The notes beneath the pieces were generated by a model. The model made no database searches. It was not told where the DNA came from and saw nothing but the letters and a program-made list of their open reading frames with translations. Shown in pieces: positions 12,675 through 21,803 of a DNA stretch of 37,143 nt (within the stretch, counting starts at the first letter, position 1; each line of letters opens with the position of its first letter). The stretch is from Deltaproteobacteria bacterium (GTDB taxonomy: Bacteria > Desulfobacterota > DSM-4660 > Desulfatiglandales > HGW-15): positions 1 through 37,143 of the forward strand of contig JAFDHO010000021.1 in assembly GCA_019308745.1 (NCBI GenBank), given 5' to 3'. Made by a program: the position numbers and the translations under genes.

Positions 12675-14279
12675 ATGAGACTCGTGAAGGCCGCTGAAAT
12701 GCGGGACATGGACCGTCTGACTATAATGGAAGTGGGCATCCCCGGAATCGTCCTGATGGAGAATGCCGCGAGGGGTGCCACCAGGATATTCCTGGATCAT
12801 TTCCGTCCCCCAAGGGGTGCCTTTGTAGTTGCCCTTTGCGGTCCCGGCAACAACGGTGGAGACGGCTACGTCATGGCCCGGTACCTCAAGGAGACCGGCC
12901 TTAAGACAACTGTCCTGGTCCTGGCACCGGAGGAGAAGATCTCCGGCGACGCCTTGACAAACCTCAAGATCGTCAAGGGACTGGACCTGGAGGTCCATCA
13001 CATCATTGATGAAAGACTCTGGGATGAACACCGACAGCTTCTGGACCGGTGCGACTATATCCTGGACGGCATTCTCGGGACCGGTCTCAATTCGCCTGTA
13101 AAGGGGTTTTACAAGAGGGTAATTGATGAAGTCAATTCTCTTCAACGACCCGTAATGTCCATAGATATCCCCTCAGGTCTCAATGCGGATTCCGGGCAGG
13201 TCCTGGGTTCCGCGATCAAGGCCTCCTTGACCGTAACCTTCGGCTTTCCCAAGTTGGGGCACGTCATCTTTCCGGGTGCGGATTATGTCGGCCGCTTGGC
13301 GCGGATTGATATTGGCATACCGGCTTCTGTTGCCGCACGCATTCCTGAGAAGGCCCGACTGGCAGAGCCGTCTCATTTCACTGACCTGCTCGCCGTGAAA
13401 AGGAGAGACATCCACAAGGGTAGCCGCGGACACCTCCTTGTCCTGGCCGGCTCCACGGGCAAGACAGGGGCCGCCACCTTGGCCTCCATTGCCGCCCTGA
13501 GGGCAGGTGCCGGACTGGTGACCCTCGGCGTTCCAAAGAGCCTCAACCCCGTCCTGGAAGGCAAGTTGACCGAGGCCATGACATATCCCCTCCCTGAGAC
13601 ACCCGGGGGATCCCTCTCCCTCGAGGCCGAGGGGGAGATAAGGAGGCTCATGGAAGGGAAAACAGCCCTCGCCCTGGGGCCGGGACTCTCCACGGACGAG
13701 CAGACCTCCGCACTCATCCTGAGGATCGTTGAGACGAGCCCCCTTCCCATGGTCATCGATGCCGATGGCATCAACGCCCTTTCAAAGGATCCAAAGGCAC
13801 TGGCTGCCTGCAGGGACAAGGCCATCCTCACTCCCCACCCCGGCGAGATGGGCAGGTTGGTCGGAAGCAGTGCGGCCGAAATCCAGGCTGATCGTGTCAG
13901 GGCGGCCCTGAGTTTTGCAGAGAACTTTGGCTGTTTCCTTGTGCTCAAGGGGGCCCGCACCCTCATCGCCGGACCGGAGGGCAATCTGTTCGTCAATCCT
14001 ACCGGCAATCCGGCCCTTTCCAGCGGAGGGTCCGGAGATGTCCTCACGGGGCTGATCGGAGGCTTCCTGGCAAGGGGGTGGCCGATGGCGGAATCCGCTG
14101 TCGGAGGCGTTTACCTCCACGGTTTGGCTGCGGACCTACTGGCCGAAGACATGGGCGAATCAGGCATCCTTGCCGGTGACCTCCTGGATGTCCTCCCTGA
14201 ACTCATGGCCCCCTTAGCCCGCGGGGAGTGGCCCCTTCGAGACCCTCCCCCCCACCAGGACTTTTACCACGGCCTGTAG
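12675..14279 (+). CDS. nnr: Bifunctional NAD(P)H-hydrate epimerase/dehydratase
   Basis: A 534-residue fusion that repairs damaged NAD(P)H. The N-terminal YjeF_N part (1-215) is the epimerase, with GPGNNGGDGYVMARYL and SIDIPSGLNAD. The C-terminal ribokinase-like part (about 225-510) is the ADP- or ATP-dependent dehydratase, with HKGSRGHLLVLAGSTGKTGA, LTPHPGEMGRL and NPALSSGGSGDVLTGLIGG. The ATG at 12675 begins one base after the acpS stop. Pairing with tsaE immediately downstream is a common bacterial arrangement. Confidence 0.96.
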   Translation: MRLVKAAEMRDMDRLTIMEVGIPGIVLMENAARGATRIFLDHFRPPRGAFVVALCGPGNNGGDGYVMARYLKETGLKTTVLVLAPEEKISGDALTNLKIVKGLDLEVHHIIDERLWDEHRQLLDRCDYILDGILGTGLNSPVKGFYKRVIDEVNSLQRPVMSIDIPSGLNADSGQVLGSAIKASLTVTFGFPKLGHVIFPGADYVGRLARIDIGIPASVAARIPEKARLAEPSHFTDLLAVKRRDIHKGSRGHLLVLAGSTGKTGAATLASIAALRAGAGLVTLGVPKSLNPVLEGKLTEAMTYPLPETPGGSLSLEAEGEIRRLMEGKTALALGPGLSTDEQTSALILRIVETSPLPMVIDADGINALSKDPKALAACRDKAILTPHPGEMGRLVGSSAAEIQADRVRAALSFAENFGCFLVLKGARTLIAGPEGNLFVNPTGNPALSSGGSGDVLTGLIGGFLARGWPMAESAVGGVYLHGLAADLLAEDMGESGILAGDLLDVLPELMAPLARGEWPLRDPPPHQDFYHGL

Positions 14280-14300
14280 GAACCGGCCGGGTGGCTTGTC

Positions 14301-14813
14301 TTGGAACAATCAATGGCGTCCCTTACCGTATTGAGCAAGAGCGACAAAGAGACCATCGAGCTGGGGCGAATGCTTGGTCAACACCTTCAGGAGGGTGATA
14401 TCCTTGGCCTGGCAGGAGAACTGGGCAGCGGCAAGACATGCCTGACAAAGGGCATTGGACAGGGGCTGGGATTGGGGCCGGGGGAAGTCATCACCAGCCC
14501 CTCCTTTACCCTTGTAAACGAGTATCAGGGCAGGCACAGGTTCTTTCATATGGACGTATACCGCCTGGAGCACGTTTCGGAATTCCTGGGTGCGGGACTC
14601 GAAGAGTACTTCTACGAGCCGGCTGTTCTGGTCTTGGAATGGGCTGACAAGTGGCTGGAAATCCTGCCCGATCATAGAATCATGATTGAATTGCTTATCC
14701 TTGACCATACAAGGAGAAAGATCACCCTTACCGGAGAGCACCCCAGGGCGGAAGAGGTCATAGGATCCCTAAAGGAGGGGCTCGGTCTCCCCAATTCTTG
14801 GACCGAATCCTGA
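14301..14813 (+). CDS. tsaE: tRNA threonylcarbamoyladenosine biosynthesis ATPase TsaE
   Basis: A 170-residue TsaE, the P-loop ATPase that cooperates with TsaD and TsaB in making t6A at position 37 of ANN-decoding tRNAs. The P-loop is GELGSGKTCLTKG, followed by SPSFTLVNEYQG and FFHMDVYRL, all typical. The start is uncertain: a TTG at 14301 has GGGTGG at good spacing, while an ATG at 14313 has no clear box and would shorten the protein by four residues. Its partner tsaD is 6 kb downstream on the same strand; no tsaB is seen in the window. Confidence 0.94.
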   Translation: MEQSMASLTVLSKSDKETIELGRMLGQHLQEGDILGLAGELGSGKTCLTKGIGQGLGLGPGEVITSPSFTLVNEYQGRHRFFHMDVYRLEHVSEFLGAGLEEYFYEPAVLVLEWADKWLEILPDHRIMIELLILDHTRRKITLTGEHPRAEEVIGSLKEGLGLPNSWTES

Positions 14814-14987
14814 TCACGGGGATTGTCCGTCACCAACCCTTTCAGGGAGTCCAGGACGCCTCGTCAGGGCCAGTTTCTCGGTATGGAGTTCATGCAAGGC
14901 TTGGGTTTTCGGCCACGCCGGATAGGGCCTTAGGGCACTTTCCGGAGATTTATTACTTCGTGGTTCCAGTATTCCGACATTCCACTT

Positions 14988-15000
14988 GGGGCAAAGCCCC
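14988..15000 (+). other. Short hairpin upstream of the OsmC-like gene
   Basis: GGGGC, AAA, GCCCC form a perfect 5-bp stem just before the long purine-rich ribosome site of the OsmC-like gene. No U run follows, so it is more likely an mRNA leader element than a terminator. I see no clear promoter in the 210 bases between tsaE and the OsmC-like gene, so the latter may be read from the upstream operon. Confidence 0.3.
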
Positions 15001-15026
15001 GAAACCGCAAGGAGGGAGGAGAGGAT

Positions 15027-15500
15027 ATGGCGCCGGTACACACGTGTAAAATCCGTATTGAAAAGCATGAGGGCCCACACAGGACAGCACACATCGAAGC
15101 CTTCAGGGACCCACTTCATTTCGGTATTCATGGAGGCATCAGGCACTTCTATCAGGAGAAGTACGGCCGACAGATTGAGGGACCCGAGTATCCTGCTGCC
15201 CTGGATCACATCGTGGCCGGCGTGGCCGGGTGACTGACCGGGACATTGGGGACCGCGCTGGACGCGCGGGGGATTCCATCGGCCGGAAATGTCATTGCCC
15301 ATGTAGAAGGAGATATTGAGGAGATCGACGGTGTCCTCAGGATTACGAATATCCGTCTCGATTATCACCTGAAGATACCCGCAGGTACCAGAGAGAAAGC
15401 AGAGAGGGCCCTTGAGCTCTATGCCGAGAAATGCCCCGCCTACCAAACCGTAAAAGACTGCATCATGTGCTCTTGGCGTGCGGAAATACTGGAAGGTTGA
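15027..15500 (+). CDS. OsmC-like protein, probable selenoprotein with in-frame TGA (Sec69)
   Basis: One reading frame of 158 codons is interrupted only by TGA at 15231-15233. Both sides match an OsmC-like thiol peroxidase: before it, DPLHFGIHGG and PAALDHIVAGVAG; after it, LTGTLGTALDARGI, HVEGDIEEIDGVLRIT and LYAEKCPAYQTVKDC. In this family the residue at the TGA is the first catalytic cysteine, in a context like GxCLTGT. Codon 69 therefore most likely encodes selenocysteine, with the second redox residue in AEKCPAYQT. A SECIS-like hairpin follows at 15253-15269. A strong GGAGGGAGGAGAGG box precedes the ATG, and neither half shows decay. OsmC-like selenoproteins are known in bacteria. A nonsense mutation in a Cys-type gene is the alternative. 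The role, inferred from the family, is reduction of organic hydroperoxides. Confidence 0.8.
15253..15269 (+). promoter_or_regulatory. Bacterial SECIS-like hairpin
   Basis: CCGCGC (15253-15258) pairs perfectly with GCGCGG (15264-15269) around the loop TGGAC. The loop starts 25 bases after the TGA codon and has G as its second base. Both features fit the described bacterial SECIS pattern: an apical loop some 16-37 bases after UGA and a G among its first two bases. It lies inside the coding sequence of the OsmC-like gene, as bacterial SECIS elements do. Confidence 0.6.
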
Positions 15501-15545
15501 TCTGGGGCTTGGTCCCGCATCTCCGCCCGCCCCTTCCGCACCATG

Positions 15546-15573
15546 GAGGCACTGGCCTCCTTTCGCCTTTTTC
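15546..15573 (+). terminator. Rho-independent terminator after the OsmC-like gene
   Basis: GGAGGC and GCCTCC form a 6-bp stem around ACTG, followed by TTTCGCCTTTTT. It lies 46 bases after the OsmC-like stop codon and before the lysC promoter, so it plausibly ends the upstream operon. Confidence 0.6.
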
Positions 15574-15709
15574 AAAGGTCAGGACAAGCGGGATGCTGGG
15601 CCTAGGCCTATTTGATCCATATTGTTGTTAAATATGCAAATTTTAGAAATAATTCCTTGTCTTAATTTCATCCAGTGACCAAATTCTTCCATCCTCAATC
15701 GATCATGCC

Positions 15710-15738
15710 TTGAATCCTTTTCCCATTCCTGCTATATG
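15710..15738 (+). promoter_or_regulatory. Promoter upstream of lysC
   Basis: TTGAAT (15710-15715) and TATATG (15733-15738) are 17 bases apart, within an A/T-rich region; TATGAT at 15735-15740 is an alternative -10. Transcription would begin about 20-25 bases before the AAGAGGT ribosome site of lysC. Together with the terminator at 15546-15573 this marks a transcriptional boundary. Confidence 0.5.
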
Positions 15739-15770
15739 ATATCTTTTAATTATATGGAACAAGAGGTACA

Positions 15771-17009
15771 ATGTCCACGATCGTTCAAAAATACGGCGGG
15801 ACCTCAGTCGCCAGTATCGAAAAGATCCGTAACGTCGCCAAAAGGGTACTCGAATACCACAACCAGGGAATCAAAGTCGTGGTTGTGCTTTCGGCCATGG
15901 CAGGCCAGACAGATGGCCTGATCCAACTGGCCCATGAAATGACGGAGCAACCGGACCCGCGGGAGCTGGATGTGCTCATGGCCACGGGTGAGCAGCTTAG
16001 TGTCGCCCTCTTCACCATGGCAATAAAATCCATGGGCTACGATGCCCGTTCCTTTCTTGGATTCCAGGTCCCCATCCGCACGGACGACCTGCACGGAAGG
16101 GCCCGCATTCACGACATTGAAACCTCGGGCATCCTGAAAGAACTCGACGCCGGCAAAATAGTCGCGGTTGCGGGATTTCAAGGCCTCGACGAAAAGGGCA
16201 ACATAACCACTCTGGGTCGCGGAGGATCGGACACAACGGCAGTGGCCTTGGCAGCAGCCCTTCGTGCCGACCTATGCGAGATATTTACTGATGTTGAGGG
16301 TGTCTTCACGACGGACCCAAACCTGTGCCCCAAGGCACGGAAAATGGACTTCATCTCCTACGATGAGATGCTCGAAATGGCGAGCATGGGGGCAAAGGTC
16401 CTGGAAATCAGGTCCGTGGAGTTTGCCAAGAAATACAGCGTGCCCCTGCACGTCAGATCAACCTTTACGAATGGAAGAGGGACCATGGTAATAGCCGAGA
16501 CAAAGGACATGGAAAGGGTATTGGTTTCCGGTGTCACCTATAACAAGGATGAGGCCAGGGTGACCATTACGAAGGTGCCGGATATGCCGGGAATAGCCGC
16601 GAAGATCTTTCATCCTATCTTCAGATCAGGGATCGTAGTTGATATGATAGTTCAAAATACCAGCAGCGAAGACGGCAGAACAGACCTGACATTCACAGTG
16701 CCCAAGACGGAGTTCCATAAGACCATGGAGTTGGTCAAGGATGTTGCCAGGGATATTGGAGCGGAAAGGGTTATGGGAGACGAGAACATTGCGAAGGTAT
16801 CCATTGTGGGCGTGGGAATGAGGACCCATGCCGGAGTGGCCCAGCGCATGTTTCAAACCCTGGCCGGTGAGAATATCAATATAATGATGATCAGCACGTC
16901 CGAGATAAAGATCTCATGTGTCATTGAAGAGAAATATACGGAACTGGCAGTCAGGGAATTGCACAAAGCCTTTGGTCTTGATGATGATCAGATCCAAGAA
17001 GAATCCTAG
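15771..17009 (+). CDS. lysC: Aspartate kinase
   Basis: A 412-residue aspartokinase, catalysing the ATP-dependent phosphorylation of aspartate that opens the pathway to lysine, methionine and threonine. The catalytic domain starts with [16 protein letters not shown] and includes [15 protein letters not shown] and [15 protein letters not shown]. The C-terminal 150 residues hold two ACT domains that bind allosteric amino acids (ending in [16 protein letters not shown]). There is no fused homoserine dehydrogenase. The start follows an AAGAGGT box and its own promoter. The helix-hairpin-helix gene overlaps its end. Confidence 0.97.
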
Positions 17010-17547
17010 TCCAGGCGGGATCCTGGTCCTAGCCCTTGTCCTCCTGCTGGGCACTGGCGTCAGGATGCTCTTGAGAGAATCACCGGAGAGTGCTGTCCTC
17101 GTCCACAATCCCTCCTATGTCCAGGTTGACGGAAATATCAGGTTTCCGGGCGTATATCCCTTTGATACCAACAGACCCACCCTACAATTACTCGTCAAAA
17201 AGGCAGGAGGCCTGAAGGGGCGTAAGAGAGATCTTGAAGCCCTCCGTGGCGATATTCCCATCTCCCATGGGACAAGGATAACCCTCTTGGGAAGTGGAGA
17301 AAAGGAGGGGTTCCGGCGGGGCGAAATGGACCCATTCTATAAAGTCTCCCTCGGGATCCCTCTTTCTGTCAACAAAGCATCGGAGCTCGACCTGATCGCC
17401 GTTCCGGGCATTGGGCCACGGCTTGCTGATGCCATTGTGCGAGAAAGGGCCAGGAGAGGGAAGTTCCTCAGCCTCCAAGAGATACGGGAGATAAGGGGTA
17501 TCAACCAGGGGATCTATAGAAAGGTGCGACCCTATCTTACCCTGTGA
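16981..17547 (+). CDS. Helix-hairpin-helix (ComEA-like) membrane-anchored protein
   Basis: About 188 residues. After a short basic N-terminus comes one hydrophobic segment ([13 protein letters not shown]), so the protein is likely anchored in the inner membrane with its bulk outside. A middle part ([16 protein letters not shown]) resembles the SLBB domain of ComEA proteins. The C-terminal 65 residues carry the helix-hairpin-helix DNA-binding motif: [20 protein letters not shown] and [19 protein letters not shown]. ComEA-like proteins bind DNA at the cell surface during uptake. No other competence gene is present here. The frame opens earlier, at 16918, inside lysC; I chose the ATG at 16981, which overlaps lysC by 29 bases. 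The ribosome site is weak. Confidence 0.75.
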
Positions 17548-17601
17548 ACTCTGAGGCACCCTCCTCTTTCGCGGGATTGGGTCAAGGGTCTTGGCTGAAC
17601 A

Positions 17602-19914
17602 ATGGAGAGAATGAAAACCAAGGTTACCATTCCGGAATGGATCGTTGGTGCCCTTATCACCCTTGTCTTCCTGTTTGTTACCTTTACGGGGATATGGGAC
17701 TTCACCGATGTCTTTGAGAGGAAGGCCTACGACCTCAGGGCCAGGATGACCGCCCAGAAGGTGAGAAACCCCGCCATAGAGCTGGTCGTCATTTCTGAAA
17801 GGGATCTTGCCGAGTTCGGTCCCCTGCCCTGGAGAGGGGATATCATCGCCCAGGTCGTTAACAATCTCTCCCTCGCGGGTGCCAGGGTAATCGCCTTCAA
17901 CATCCCGTTCCGGGAGACGGCCGAGAATCTCCCCCTGAAGACCTTGAATGACCTCAAGAAATCCTATGAGCGCCTGGGTTTGGTCAAGGAAGGGCCCAAT
18001 CTCTCCTTCTACCATAGGCTCGTCCAGGCACTGGCCCAACTGGATCATGAGAAGAAACTGTACACAGCAATGAAAGAGGCCGGAAATGTTGTCCTGCCGG
18101 TCCATTTTGATGTCTCGACCCGGGAAAAGGATAAGGAGATCCCGGAATTCGTTCCAAAAAACGCCATCAAGAATATCAAGATCTCGGTTTCTCCTGGAAT
18201 CAGGGAACCTATCATCTTGGTATCCAAGATGGAGCCCATACCCCGGGCCCTTGCCCAGGTCGCCGCTGCAATCGGCTTTGACAACATCTTTCCCCAGGAT
18301 GACGGGCGTATTAGGGACCAGGTTCATGTCCTGAGATATCAGAGAGACATCCACTTCCCTTCGCTGGCCATTGCCATTGCAAAGGTATTCTTCGGTATTC
18401 AAGGAGAGGGACTCGGTCTGAGCCTCGGGAAAAATATCCTTCTCAAGCGGGACAAGCCGCCGGTATCAGTTGAGATACCCGTCACAGGTCCCCAGATGAG
18501 GTCCCTTATAAAATGGAACAGGGGGCCGGGTGCGGCCTTTCACCGGGTCCCCATTTCCAAGGTCCTCAAGAACGAAATTGCAACGGGTCTCTTCAAGAAC
18601 AAGATTGCCATTATCGGTACCTCTGGCGGGACCCCCCCGGGCCTGTTTGAGACCCCCCTATCGAGGGGCATTCCCGCGCTGGAGATCATTGCCAATTCCG
18701 TGGAAAATATCCTCGACCAGCGTTTCCTGTCACGGCCTGATTGGAGCAGATTTCTGGAGTTAGGGATTCTTGTTCTCTTCGGTCTTTTTCTCACTCTTTT
18801 ACTCCCGAGGATGGATACCTCCCTCGGCATCGCGGCCGCCCTGGGTCTTGCACTCCTCTATGGGATTACCGGCTTCGTTTCCTTTGTGTTCTTCAGCACC
18901 TGGGTCAAGGTTGCCCCCCCGATCATGATGCTGCTGTTCGGCGGCCTGGTCATCATCCTGGTAAAGAGATTGTCGGGCCTCGAGGCCCTTTCCGAACCTG
19001 TTGCCGCCATCGAGCTCACAGAGGTGGCGGAGCCCGTTCCAGAGGAGACCGCCCCAAAGCCGGCCCTTCGGGGCTTCAAACTGGGTGAAGAACTGGGTCG
19101 CGGCACTCTGGGAAAGGTTTACCGGGCCGTGGATCCCAAGACCGACCGGGTCTTTGCCGTCAAGACGATCCATCTCGGCAGTCTTCCAGAGGACATAGCT
19201 TCCGAAACAAAGGAACGACTCATCTCCGGTGTCCGATCGGCCAAGTTACTCAAGCATCCTAACATCGTCCGGGTGTTTGGCTACGGGTCCGAAGCTGAGA
19301 CCCTGTTCATTGTCATGACCTTTGTGGAAGGACGGAGCCTCGGCCATTACGTGCAAAAGGACCGGCTGTTGCCTCTCAGGGAGGCCCTCTCTGTTTGCGG
19401 TCAGGTCGCTGAGGGCCTGGAATACGCCCATGGCATGGGCATTGTCCACGGTAATATCAAACCCACCAATATCATTCTGGACGGGAGTGGTGGAATTGCG
19501 AGGATCACGGACTTCGGGATGGTGAATATTGCCCCCGCTTCAGGGACAAAGCCCGATTCCCCTGCCGGTTTGCCTCTCTATATGTCCCCTGAACAGGTGC
19601 TGGGCAAGAAAATTGACGGGCGATCGGACGTCTTCTCCCTGGGCGTCGTCCTGTATCAGTTATTGTGCCATGTAAATCCCTTTGCTTCCGAGGATATCAA
19701 CACGATCATGCGAAGGATCGTGAAGGACGAACCCATATCCGTCCGCAGGCTCAATCCTTCGGTCCCCTCGGTCGTTGAAATGATCATGGCGAAGGTCCTT
19801 CAAAAGGATCCTGATAAAAGGTACCAGAGATCGGGCCTCTTGGCCGAACACATCAAGAAGGTGGTTCAAAGGATCGATGAAATCTCTGAAAGAAACAGGG
19901 GCGGAGCACCCTGA
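17602..19914 (+). CDS. CHASE2-domain Ser/Thr protein kinase with HGN in place of HRD
   Basis: A 770-residue membrane receptor-type kinase. One helix (about 12-34) precedes a periplasmic CHASE2 sensor domain (about 40-390), three more helices follow (about 390-465), and then a cytoplasmic Hanks-type kinase domain (about 492-765). Kinase elements visible are a glycine loop in LGRGTLGKVYRA, Lys521 in FAVKTI, the DFG motif at Asp637 and YMSPEQV. The catalytic loop reads IVHGNIKPTNIIL: position 618, normally the catalytic aspartate of HRD, is asparagine. Phosphotransfer may therefore be weak or absent, although the ATP-binding residues remain. The adjacent PP2C gene makes a kinase/phosphatase pair. 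The CHASE2 ligand is unknown. Confidence 0.9.
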   Translation: MERMKTKVTIPEWIVGALITLVFLFVTFTGIWDFTDVFERKAYDLRARMTAQKVRNPAIELVVISERDLAEFGPLPWRGDIIAQVVNNLSLAGARVIAFNIPFRETAENLPLKTLNDLKKSYERLGLVKEGPNLSFYHRLVQALAQLDHEKKLYTAMKEAGNVVLPVHFDVSTREKDKEIPEFVPKNAIKNIKISVSPGIREPIILVSKMEPIPRALAQVAAAIGFDNIFPQDDGRIRDQVHVLRYQRDIHFPSLAIAIAKVFFGIQGEGLGLSLGKNILLKRDKPPVSVEIPVTGPQMRSLIKWNRGPGAAFHRVPISKVLKNEIATGLFKNKIAIIGTSGGTPPGLFETPLSRGIPALEIIANSVENILDQRFLSRPDWSRFLELGILVLFGLFLTLLLPRMDTSLGIAAALGLALLYGITGFVSFVFFSTWVKVAPPIMMLLFGGLVIILVKRLSGLEALSEPVAAIELTEVAEPVPEETAPKPALRGFKLGEELGRGTLGKVYRAVDPKTDRVFAVKTIHLGSLPEDIASETKERLISGVRSAKLLKHPNIVRVFGYGSEAETLFIVMTFVEGRSLGHYVQKDRLLPLREALSVCGQVAEGLEYAHGMGIVHGNIKPTNIILDGSGGIARITDFGMVNIAPASGTKPDSPAGLPLYMSPEQVLGKKIDGRSDVFSLGVVLYQLLCHVNPFASEDINTIMRRIVKDEPISVRRLNPSVPSVVEMIMAKVLQKDPDKRYQRSGLLAEHIKKVVQRIDEISERNRGGAP

Positions 19915-19931
19915 AACGCCTTGAAAAGACG

Positions 19932-20744
19932 ATGCAAATCAGAGCTGCGGGGAAGACAGACAGGGGCCTCCGACGTAAGACAAACCAGGATTACATCCTA
20001 GTCTCGCCCGAGTTGGGTCTCTTCGTAATTGCCGATGGTATGGGGGGGCATGTGGCAGGGGAGGTGGCCAGCCGCCTGGCAGTAGAGACCATGGGGGACT
20101 ATTGGCAAAAGGTGAGGGGCGGAAACCCTCCCCCTTTCCTCCACAGGGTGCACGACGATCTGCCGGAAGAGGCCAAGCACCTCATCAACTCCATCAGCCT
20201 TGCCAACTCCATCATCCACGAGGCCCAGAAGAAGCCTGAGTATCACAGCATGGGGACCACCATTTCTGCCATTCTTGTGGAGGGAGACTGTTTCTGGTGT
20301 GCCAACGTTGGAGACAGCCCGGTCTACGTGTGCGATCGGGGTCGCTTGGTCCAGATCTCCGAAGAGCACAGCGTGGAGGCGGAACAGAGAAGCCTTGGAA
20401 GGGGTGATACCTGGAGTTCAACCAATCCGATGCTGAAGAATATCCTCACGAGGGCCCTCGGCATAAGGGAAACGGTCAAGATATATATCACTCCCGTGCG
20501 CCCCGAGCCGGGTGACTATCTGTTAATATGCTCCGATGGACTGACAAACTACGTGTCCGAACCATTGATCCAAGACATCTTGAACGAATCTTCCATTTCC
20601 ATCCAGAGGAAGGTCGACCGCCTGGTCAATGAGGCCAACAAGCACGGGGGAGGAGACAACATCTCTGTGATCATCCTGGAGATCCTTAAGGAAAGGAAAT
20701 GGCGCAGGCTGAGGAAAACGTTCTTTGACCGGGACGGTTCCTGA
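19932..20744 (+). CDS. PP2C-type protein phosphatase
   Basis: A 270-residue soluble metal-dependent Ser/Thr phosphatase of the PP2C/Stp family. Metal-ligand motifs are RKTNQDYILV, VIADGMGGHVAGE, YLLICSDGLTNYV and GGGDNISVIIL, all intact; GTTISAILV and ANVGDSPVYV are also present. It begins 17 bases after the kinase stop codon, so it probably dephosphorylates the targets of, or the kinase in, that gene pair. The ribosome site is only moderate. Confidence 0.95.
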   Translation: MQIRAAGKTDRGLRRKTNQDYILVSPELGLFVIADGMGGHVAGEVASRLAVETMGDYWQKVRGGNPPPFLHRVHDDLPEEAKHLINSISLANSIIHEAQKKPEYHSMGTTISAILVEGDCFWCANVGDSPVYVCDRGRLVQISEEHSVEAEQRSLGRGDTWSSTNPMLKNILTRALGIRETVKIYITPVRPEPGDYLLICSDGLTNYVSEPLIQDILNESSISIQRKVDRLVNEANKHGGGDNISVIILEILKERKWRRLRKTFFDRDGS

Positions 20745-20750
20745 GAGATC

Positions 20751-21803
20751 ATGTTTGTCCTCGGCATCGATACCTCCTGCGATGATACCTCCGCTGCGGT
20801 GGTGGTCGATGGTCATCAGACCCTGTCCAGCGTTGTCCACTCCCAGATAAATATCCATCATCCCTATGGCGGCGTGGTCCCCGAGCTTGCATCGAGGGAA
20901 CACCTCCGCAACCTTGTCCCCGTGGCGGAAAAGGCCCTCTCAGGGGCAGGTATCCGGCCGGAGGATCTGCATGGTATAGCCGTAACCGTCGGGCCGGGGC
21001 TCATAGGGTCCCTCCTCATAGGACTCTACTACGGCAAGGCCCTCTCCTACGTACACAATATACCCCTTGTGGCCGTAAACCATCTTGAGGGTCATATCCT
21101 CTCCATATTCCTGGAAGATGAAATACCGGACTTCCCTTTCCTGACCCTGACCGTGGCTGGCGGCCATACCTCCATTGTCCATGTCAGAGGTTTCGGGAAC
21201 TACGAACTGCTGGGCCAGACCCTTGACGATGCCGCGGGCGAGGCCTTTGACAAGATCGCGAAAATCCTCGGCCTGGGTTATCCTGGAGGGGTCGTCATTG
21301 AAAGACTTTCCCAATCCGGGAGAAAGGACAGGATAGGCTTTCCCCGCGCCCTATTGTCCCCCGACTCCCTTGACTTCAGTTTCAGTGGTCTCAAGACCGC
21401 AGTGGCCTTGTTTGTCAAGAAGTGGCGTCAAGAAAAGAACCCTCCTGTCAAGTTGGAAGATATAGCTGCTTCTTTTCAAGAGGCCGTTGTAGATGTCCTC
21501 GTCCAAAAACTCATGCGCGCCAGGGAGAAGACGGGTGTCAATACCCTCGTCATTGCCGGGGGAGTGGCCTGTAATAAGGCCCTCAGGGAGAAATTGAGAG
21601 AAACGGCCGAAAGGAACGGATTCAAATTCTACTATCCCAGGCCGTCCTACTGCACTGATAACGGAGCCATGATCGCCCTTGCGGGTTATCACCGAATGCT
21701 GGACGGCCAAGTCGCGGACCTGTCCGTAGATGTTCGATCCCGGTTCCCTCTGAAGGACCTTCGGCCATTGAGCCACAGGGCAAAGGGGCCGGGTCCTTCT
21801 TGA
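20751..21803 (+). CDS. tsaD: tRNA N6-adenosine threonylcarbamoyltransferase TsaD
   Basis: A 350-residue TsaD (Kae1/YgjD), the catalytic subunit that transfers threonylcarbamoyl to A37 of tRNA. The start GIDTSCDDTSAAVV and the iron ligands in NHLEGHILS are typical. LTVAGGHTS, TLDDAAGEAFDK, GGVACNKALR and YCTDNGAMIA are also present. It starts six bases after the PP2C stop codon. TsaE is encoded upstream in the same window. Confidence 0.97.
   Translation: MFVLGIDTSCDDTSAAVVVDGHQTLSSVVHSQINIHHPYGGVVPELASREHLRNLVPVAEKALSGAGIRPEDLHGIAVTVGPGLIGSLLIGLYYGKALSYVHNIPLVAVNHLEGHILSIFLEDEIPDFPFLTLTVAGGHTSIVHVRGFGNYELLGQTLDDAAGEAFDKIAKILGLGYPGGVVIERLSQSGRKDRIGFPRALLSPDSLDFSFSGLKTAVALFVKKWRQEKNPPVKLEDIAASFQEAVVDVLVQKLMRAREKTGVNTLVIAGGVACNKALREKLRETAERNGFKFYYPRPSYCTDNGAMIALAGYHRMLDGQVADLSVDVRSRFPLKDLRPLSHRAKGPGPS

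Follow-up and report, generated by a model that had tools for sequence, protein, structure and literature searches.

The OsmC-like gene and its surroundings

The window, a 37,143-nt stretch of DNA from a Deltaproteobacteria bacterium, carries on its forward strand a frame (15027–15500) that opens with ATG, runs for 68 codons to an in-frame TGA (15231–15233), continues for 88 more codons and closes with another TGA (15498–15500), which frame and homologues mark as the genuine stop of the same gene. Read through, the gene (stop codon included in the coordinates) encodes a predicted OsmC-like selenoprotein of 157 aa with selenocysteine (Sec) as residue 69. The ATG is preceded by a purine-rich, Shine-Dalgarno-like stretch (AGGAGGGAGGAGAGG; 15010–15024, plus strand), and GGAG-type motifs are found upstream of the starts of most homologues; a scan for promoters and terminators round the gene gave nothing usable. 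A 253-aa open frame on the opposite strand (14814–15575) appears to be mechanical, as the matching antisense frame has stops in most relatives.

The read-through product matches Pfam OsmC (PF02566) over residues 55–146, spanning the TGA (E=1.1e-13; 51.9 bits, above the gathering cut-off of 27.5). Residue 69 lies opposite the Cys of Thermus OsmC (1UKK; phmmer), and U69 and C136 lie opposite C59 and C125 of E. coli OsmC (hhalign). The Cys136 codon (15432–15434, plus strand; motif KCPAY) is invariant and corresponds in the alignments to the second, resolving Cys of OsmC. The original prediction, made from the letters of the window, had the frame running on past the TGA as OsmC and the TGA at the catalytic Cys position, and both points agree with these alignments. 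An AlphaFold model adopts the OsmC/Ohr fold (pLDDT 82.7), with E. coli OsmC (Foldseek E 2e-6) and Thermus OsmC as best PDB matches; the high rmsd of this single-chain model probably reflects different placement of elements that wrap around the partner subunit in the dimer.

The flanking genes are ordinary. Within 12675–21803, tsaE (14301–14813) and tsaD (20751–21803) lie 6 kb apart, and around and between them are genes for an NAD(P)H-hydrate repair enzyme, a lysC-type aspartokinase, a CHASE2-type Ser/Thr kinase and a PP2C phosphatase. Part of the novelty had originally been seen in the position of the gene after tsaE and before lysC. This context is uninformative, because no neighbour is conserved: no conserved partner gene emerged from about 25 other loci, and the neighbours lend no support to any pathway.

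Decoding of the in-frame TGA

Homologues were matched in 9 of 61 relatives, in 12 of 85 class genomes and in 36 of 395 phylum genomes; a scan of named contigs added homologues in MAGs titled Deltaproteobacteria, Desulfobacteraceae and Planctomycetota. The same gene sequence is present at the HGW-Deltaproteobacteria-15 locus and in a genome of the window's family (G004). Searches of plasmid and viral contigs gave no relatives of the gene. Two groups can be distinguished: a close clade (clade 1; 13 sequences, ~70% identity, motif U-L-T/L/M-G-T) with tree support of 100/100, and a distant set (clade 2; 33 sequences, ~45% identity, U-M-M-G-T, with one U-M-T-G-T). The motif UxxG (ULTG, UMMG) is common to all 46. 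Every one of these 46 distinct coding sequences, the window's included, has exactly one in-frame TGA, at codon 69, and none has Cys (TGC/TGT), TAA or TAG there. Across the three samples (relatives, class and phylum), all matches at E<=1e-15 likewise have one TGA; a divergent member in another genome (G109), beyond the 46, carries TGA as well.

Relatives carrying TGC or random decay at this codon had been named as grounds for abandoning the selenoprotein reading; the close relatives all keep TGA. As is expected of a selenoprotein gene, the in-frame TGA is flanked on either side by conserved coding sequence, and pN/pS values of 0.17 5′ and 0.29 3′ of the TGA indicate purifying selection on both halves. 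An isolated in-frame stop usually signals decay, and draft assemblies such as this one, in 418 contigs, contain errors; a true stop, in a pseudogene or in an ordinary Cys OsmC gene altered by a sequencing or assembly error, is nevertheless a negligible prospect here, given selection on the downstream half and the hairpin covariation described below. Sequencing error, decay and chance are excluded by the TGA in 46/46 sequences, the compensatory stem changes and the low synonymous variation in the hairpin codons.

The window genome (5.06 Mb, 418 contigs, 91.5% complete) encodes all four components that the original prediction had proposed to look for: tRNA-Sec (73.1 bits over the Rfam cut-off), SelB (642 aa, E=5e-112), SelA (E=8e-159) and SelD (E=2e-115). 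The selD gene (L041, G000:C211:27720-28646, minus strand) has an in-frame TGA of its own (context SGAGUASK), a sign that it too is a selenoprotein gene and, independently, that UGA is read as Sec in this genome. SelB matches were found in 17/17 further genomes with the OsmC-like gene, over the cut-off in 14 (including five reached via named MAGs); the three carriers with only below-cut-off, SelB-like matches are all MAGs of 69–83% completeness. SelA, with a match in 360/395 genomes of the phylum, is uninformative as a phylogenetic correlate.

A bacterial SECIS-like hairpin (15253–15269, plus strand) follows the TGA, with a 6-bp stem (CCGCGC/GCGCGG) and the loop TGGAC. Its stem starts 19 nt past the end of the TGA codon (22 nt past its first base) and its loop 25 nt past the codon end; the loop had been placed correctly in the original prediction, while the stem start, put at 22 bases after the codon end, is here corrected to 19. 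By the bSECISearch rule, a loop about 16–37 nt after the TGA with a G among its first two bases is characteristic of bacterial SECIS elements, and the hairpin has both features. Of the 7493 in-frame codons in other window genes, 37 (0.5%) are followed by a comparable hairpin at a comparable distance, and of all the window's TGA read-through candidates the OsmC-like gene alone combines a 6-bp all-GC stem with a loop-initial guanine. The evidence for the hairpin is comparative, since the single-sequence folding energy of the region is not exceptional (z=-0.58) and an Rfam search of it found no matching model. In the 13 sequences of the close clade 98.7% of cells are paired in the 6-bp stem, and two of the six stem pairs show compensatory changes (AU:7/GC:5 at one, CG:12/GC:1 at the other), so that the predicted hairpin is conserved in close relatives; none of 500 shuffles and no slid register gave as high a covariation score. 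The stem-loop codons (76–81) have the lowest synonymous change of 145 windows along the gene. The stem contains an A-C mismatch in a single member of clade 1 (L025). The AU/GC pair couples a silent change at Ala77 (GCG/GCA) with an Ala-to-Val replacement at residue 80 (GCG/GTG), an instructive case of protein and RNA constraint acting on the same bases.

In the distant set a separate 7-bp hairpin follows the TGA, with its loop 19 nt after the codon and less covariation. At the clade 2 loci L029–L032 and L055–L083 the hairpin sequence differs (CTGGCC.../GGCCGG-type) and the loop lies 19–22 nt after the TGA, as if the SECIS had been rebuilt and Sec retained.

The TGA at 15231 is thus very probably decoded as Sec, in keeping with the selenoprotein reading first proposed: the frame, the machinery, the conservation of the TGA and the hairpin are each established by comparison, and from them we infer insertion itself. 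SelB and tRNA-Sec, aided by the hairpin at 15253–15269, would decode the codon to yield the full 157-aa OsmC-fold selenoprotein. Reading of the TGA as Trp or Cys, whether by an altered code or by a suppressor tRNA, would equally leave the frame open, but is scarcely credible: TGA is not globally reassigned in the window genome, as it ends the OsmC-like gene itself, 26/46 homologues and other window genes such as tsaE, and the Sec machinery is complete, with the codon at the peroxidatic Cys position and a covarying hairpin at SECIS distance.

Predicted activity of the protein

Six residues are invariant in 46/46 sequences (Arg19, Glu54, Asp60, U69, Cys136 and Pro137), and the two catalytic-cysteine positions of the OsmC/Ohr superfamily, the first as Sec, are therefore both kept in all of them. 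Ohr has Cys61, Arg19 and Glu51 as its catalytic triad, and the Arg loop lies close to the peroxidatic Cys (PMC5962072). The window lineage resembles Ohr (TIGR03561) in its invariant Arg19, which would likewise lie in the beta1-beta2 loop. It differs in having Sec and in lacking a clear alignment to the catalytic Glu, for which E54 and D60 are alternative counterparts; one relative scored 16.7 bits against TIGR03561 (cut-off 88.85). The Gly of the UxxG motif also recalls Ohr, which has Gly at +3 after the peroxidatic residue. With OsmC (E. coli OsmC, Thermus 1UKK; TIGR03562) the window protein shares the core fold and the aligned catalytic Cys positions; unlike OsmC, it has Sec for the first Cys, about 15–20% identity and an N-terminus of the lineage's own (HTS..I.IEKHEGPHR..IE...FGIHGGI..FY), and it scores 21 bits against TIGR03562, below the cut-off of 85.8.

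By analogy with the family, the product probably reduces (organic) hydroperoxides in a selenium-dependent manner, Sec69 serving as the peroxidatic and Cys136 as the resolving residue, and most likely does so as a small stand-alone homodimeric peroxidase. The Sec69 selenolate would attack an (organic) hydroperoxide to give a selenenic acid, which Cys136 would resolve to a selenenylsulfide, and a dithiol such as lipoamide or thioredoxin would then reduce the latter. The selenolate would be activated by Arg19 in the beta1-beta2 loop and by the acidic Glu54/Asp60 before Sec69, in the roles that Arg and Glu have in Ohr.

A Sec-containing OsmC-fold protein that is not a hydroperoxidase, such as a thiol/selenol transferase or a YhfA-like protein, is a less probable but serious possibility, and perhaps one that handles reactive sulfur or selenium compounds in anaerobes. 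The Ohr/OsmC family has members with no known activity, such as E. coli YhfA (PMC5962072); the carriers include sulfate-reducer-type MAGs, the UxxG motif and HGGI..FY loop are specific to the window's lineage, and no peroxide-stress gene is a conserved neighbour. Against this, conservation of both OsmC cysteine positions, Arg19 and the acidic residues before Sec69 fits a peroxidase mechanism, and a hydroperoxide reductase is preferred.

Relation to described OsmC-like selenoproteins

OsmC-like selenoproteins were first reported in 2005 from the Sargasso Sea, as three sequences with the motif UxxT, a SECIS-type hairpin after the TGA and Cys homologues in the same data (PMC1088965); they were found again in the GOS data in 2008 (PMC2398784), are listed in reviews (PMC13188914, PMC9312934) and have an NCBIfam model (NF041052, OsmC_like_Se). 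The original prediction was accordingly right that such proteins had already been described in bacteria. The window's protein is like the UxxT type in belonging to the OsmC family, in having Sec in place of the peroxidatic Cys and in the hairpin after the TGA; it differs in its motif, which is UxxG throughout the window's lineage, and in that Cys homologues, counted for the 2005 family (PMC1088965), were not found for this lineage. The window protein gave no match to NF041052 at E<=0.001, and the relatives tabulated reached at most 17.7 bits, where the model's cut-off is 95 bits (best E-value among 13 members, 1.7e-6). The phylum's NF041052 matches above the cut-off come from genes other than these: a ULLT member and a UMFS member, both with TGA, and a Cys member. 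Compared by motif and by this model, the window's lineage appears to be of the same kind as the published OsmC-like selenoproteins and of a different subfamily, which some authors may count under the same heading. The NF041052-type selenoproteins are L122 (G276; ULLT, a UxxT motif) and L123 (G118; UMFS), and G118 has two such genes.

To look for a Cys form of the window's lineage, a profile built from the two groups was run against 297 genomes (E<=1e-5). No full-length Cys form was found in these genomes, and all full-length matches carry TGA; the next-best profile matches were Cys proteins aligned over the core only (E about 1e-10 to 1e-12) and short rearranged fragments in one genome (G270). 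Long branches leave the tree without a firm branching order among clade 2, the divergent member in G109 and the Cys outgroups. The lineage looks like an unnamed Sec-only OsmC subfamily of the window's phylum (Deltaproteobacteria-type) and of Planctomycetota-titled MAGs. On balance, we favour an obligately Sec subfamily that lacks a full-length Cys form and occurs in about a tenth of the phylum genomes sampled as well as in the Planctomycetota-titled MAGs. The novelty, placed originally in this instance and its context, would then lie in the whole UxxG subfamily, which that reading had missed.

Searches that match a TGA to Cys in homologues have uncovered many bacterial selenoproteins; they presuppose that nearly every one has numerous Cys forms (PMC12013277). 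If the subfamily is Sec-only, it is a redox subfamily that would be hard to find by searches based on Cys homologues and would tend to escape them, and Sec could be functionally irreplaceable in it; standard gene callers would split or truncate its genes. With the OsmC/Ohr fold shared and one atom different, it would offer a clean system for asking why Cys cannot replace Sec.

Clade 1 members in Planctomycetota-titled MAGs (L034, L035, L037 and L040) group with Deltaproteobacteria-type members, which suggests horizontal transfer, mis-titled MAGs or contamination. G270 carries three copies of the N-terminal ~30–45 codons of the gene with near-identical upstream sequence (L115, G270:C118, near 3967 and 5087; L116, G270:C20:12231-12365), each running into unrelated sequence, and these look like a rearranged or decayed remnant that was duplicated together with its leader.
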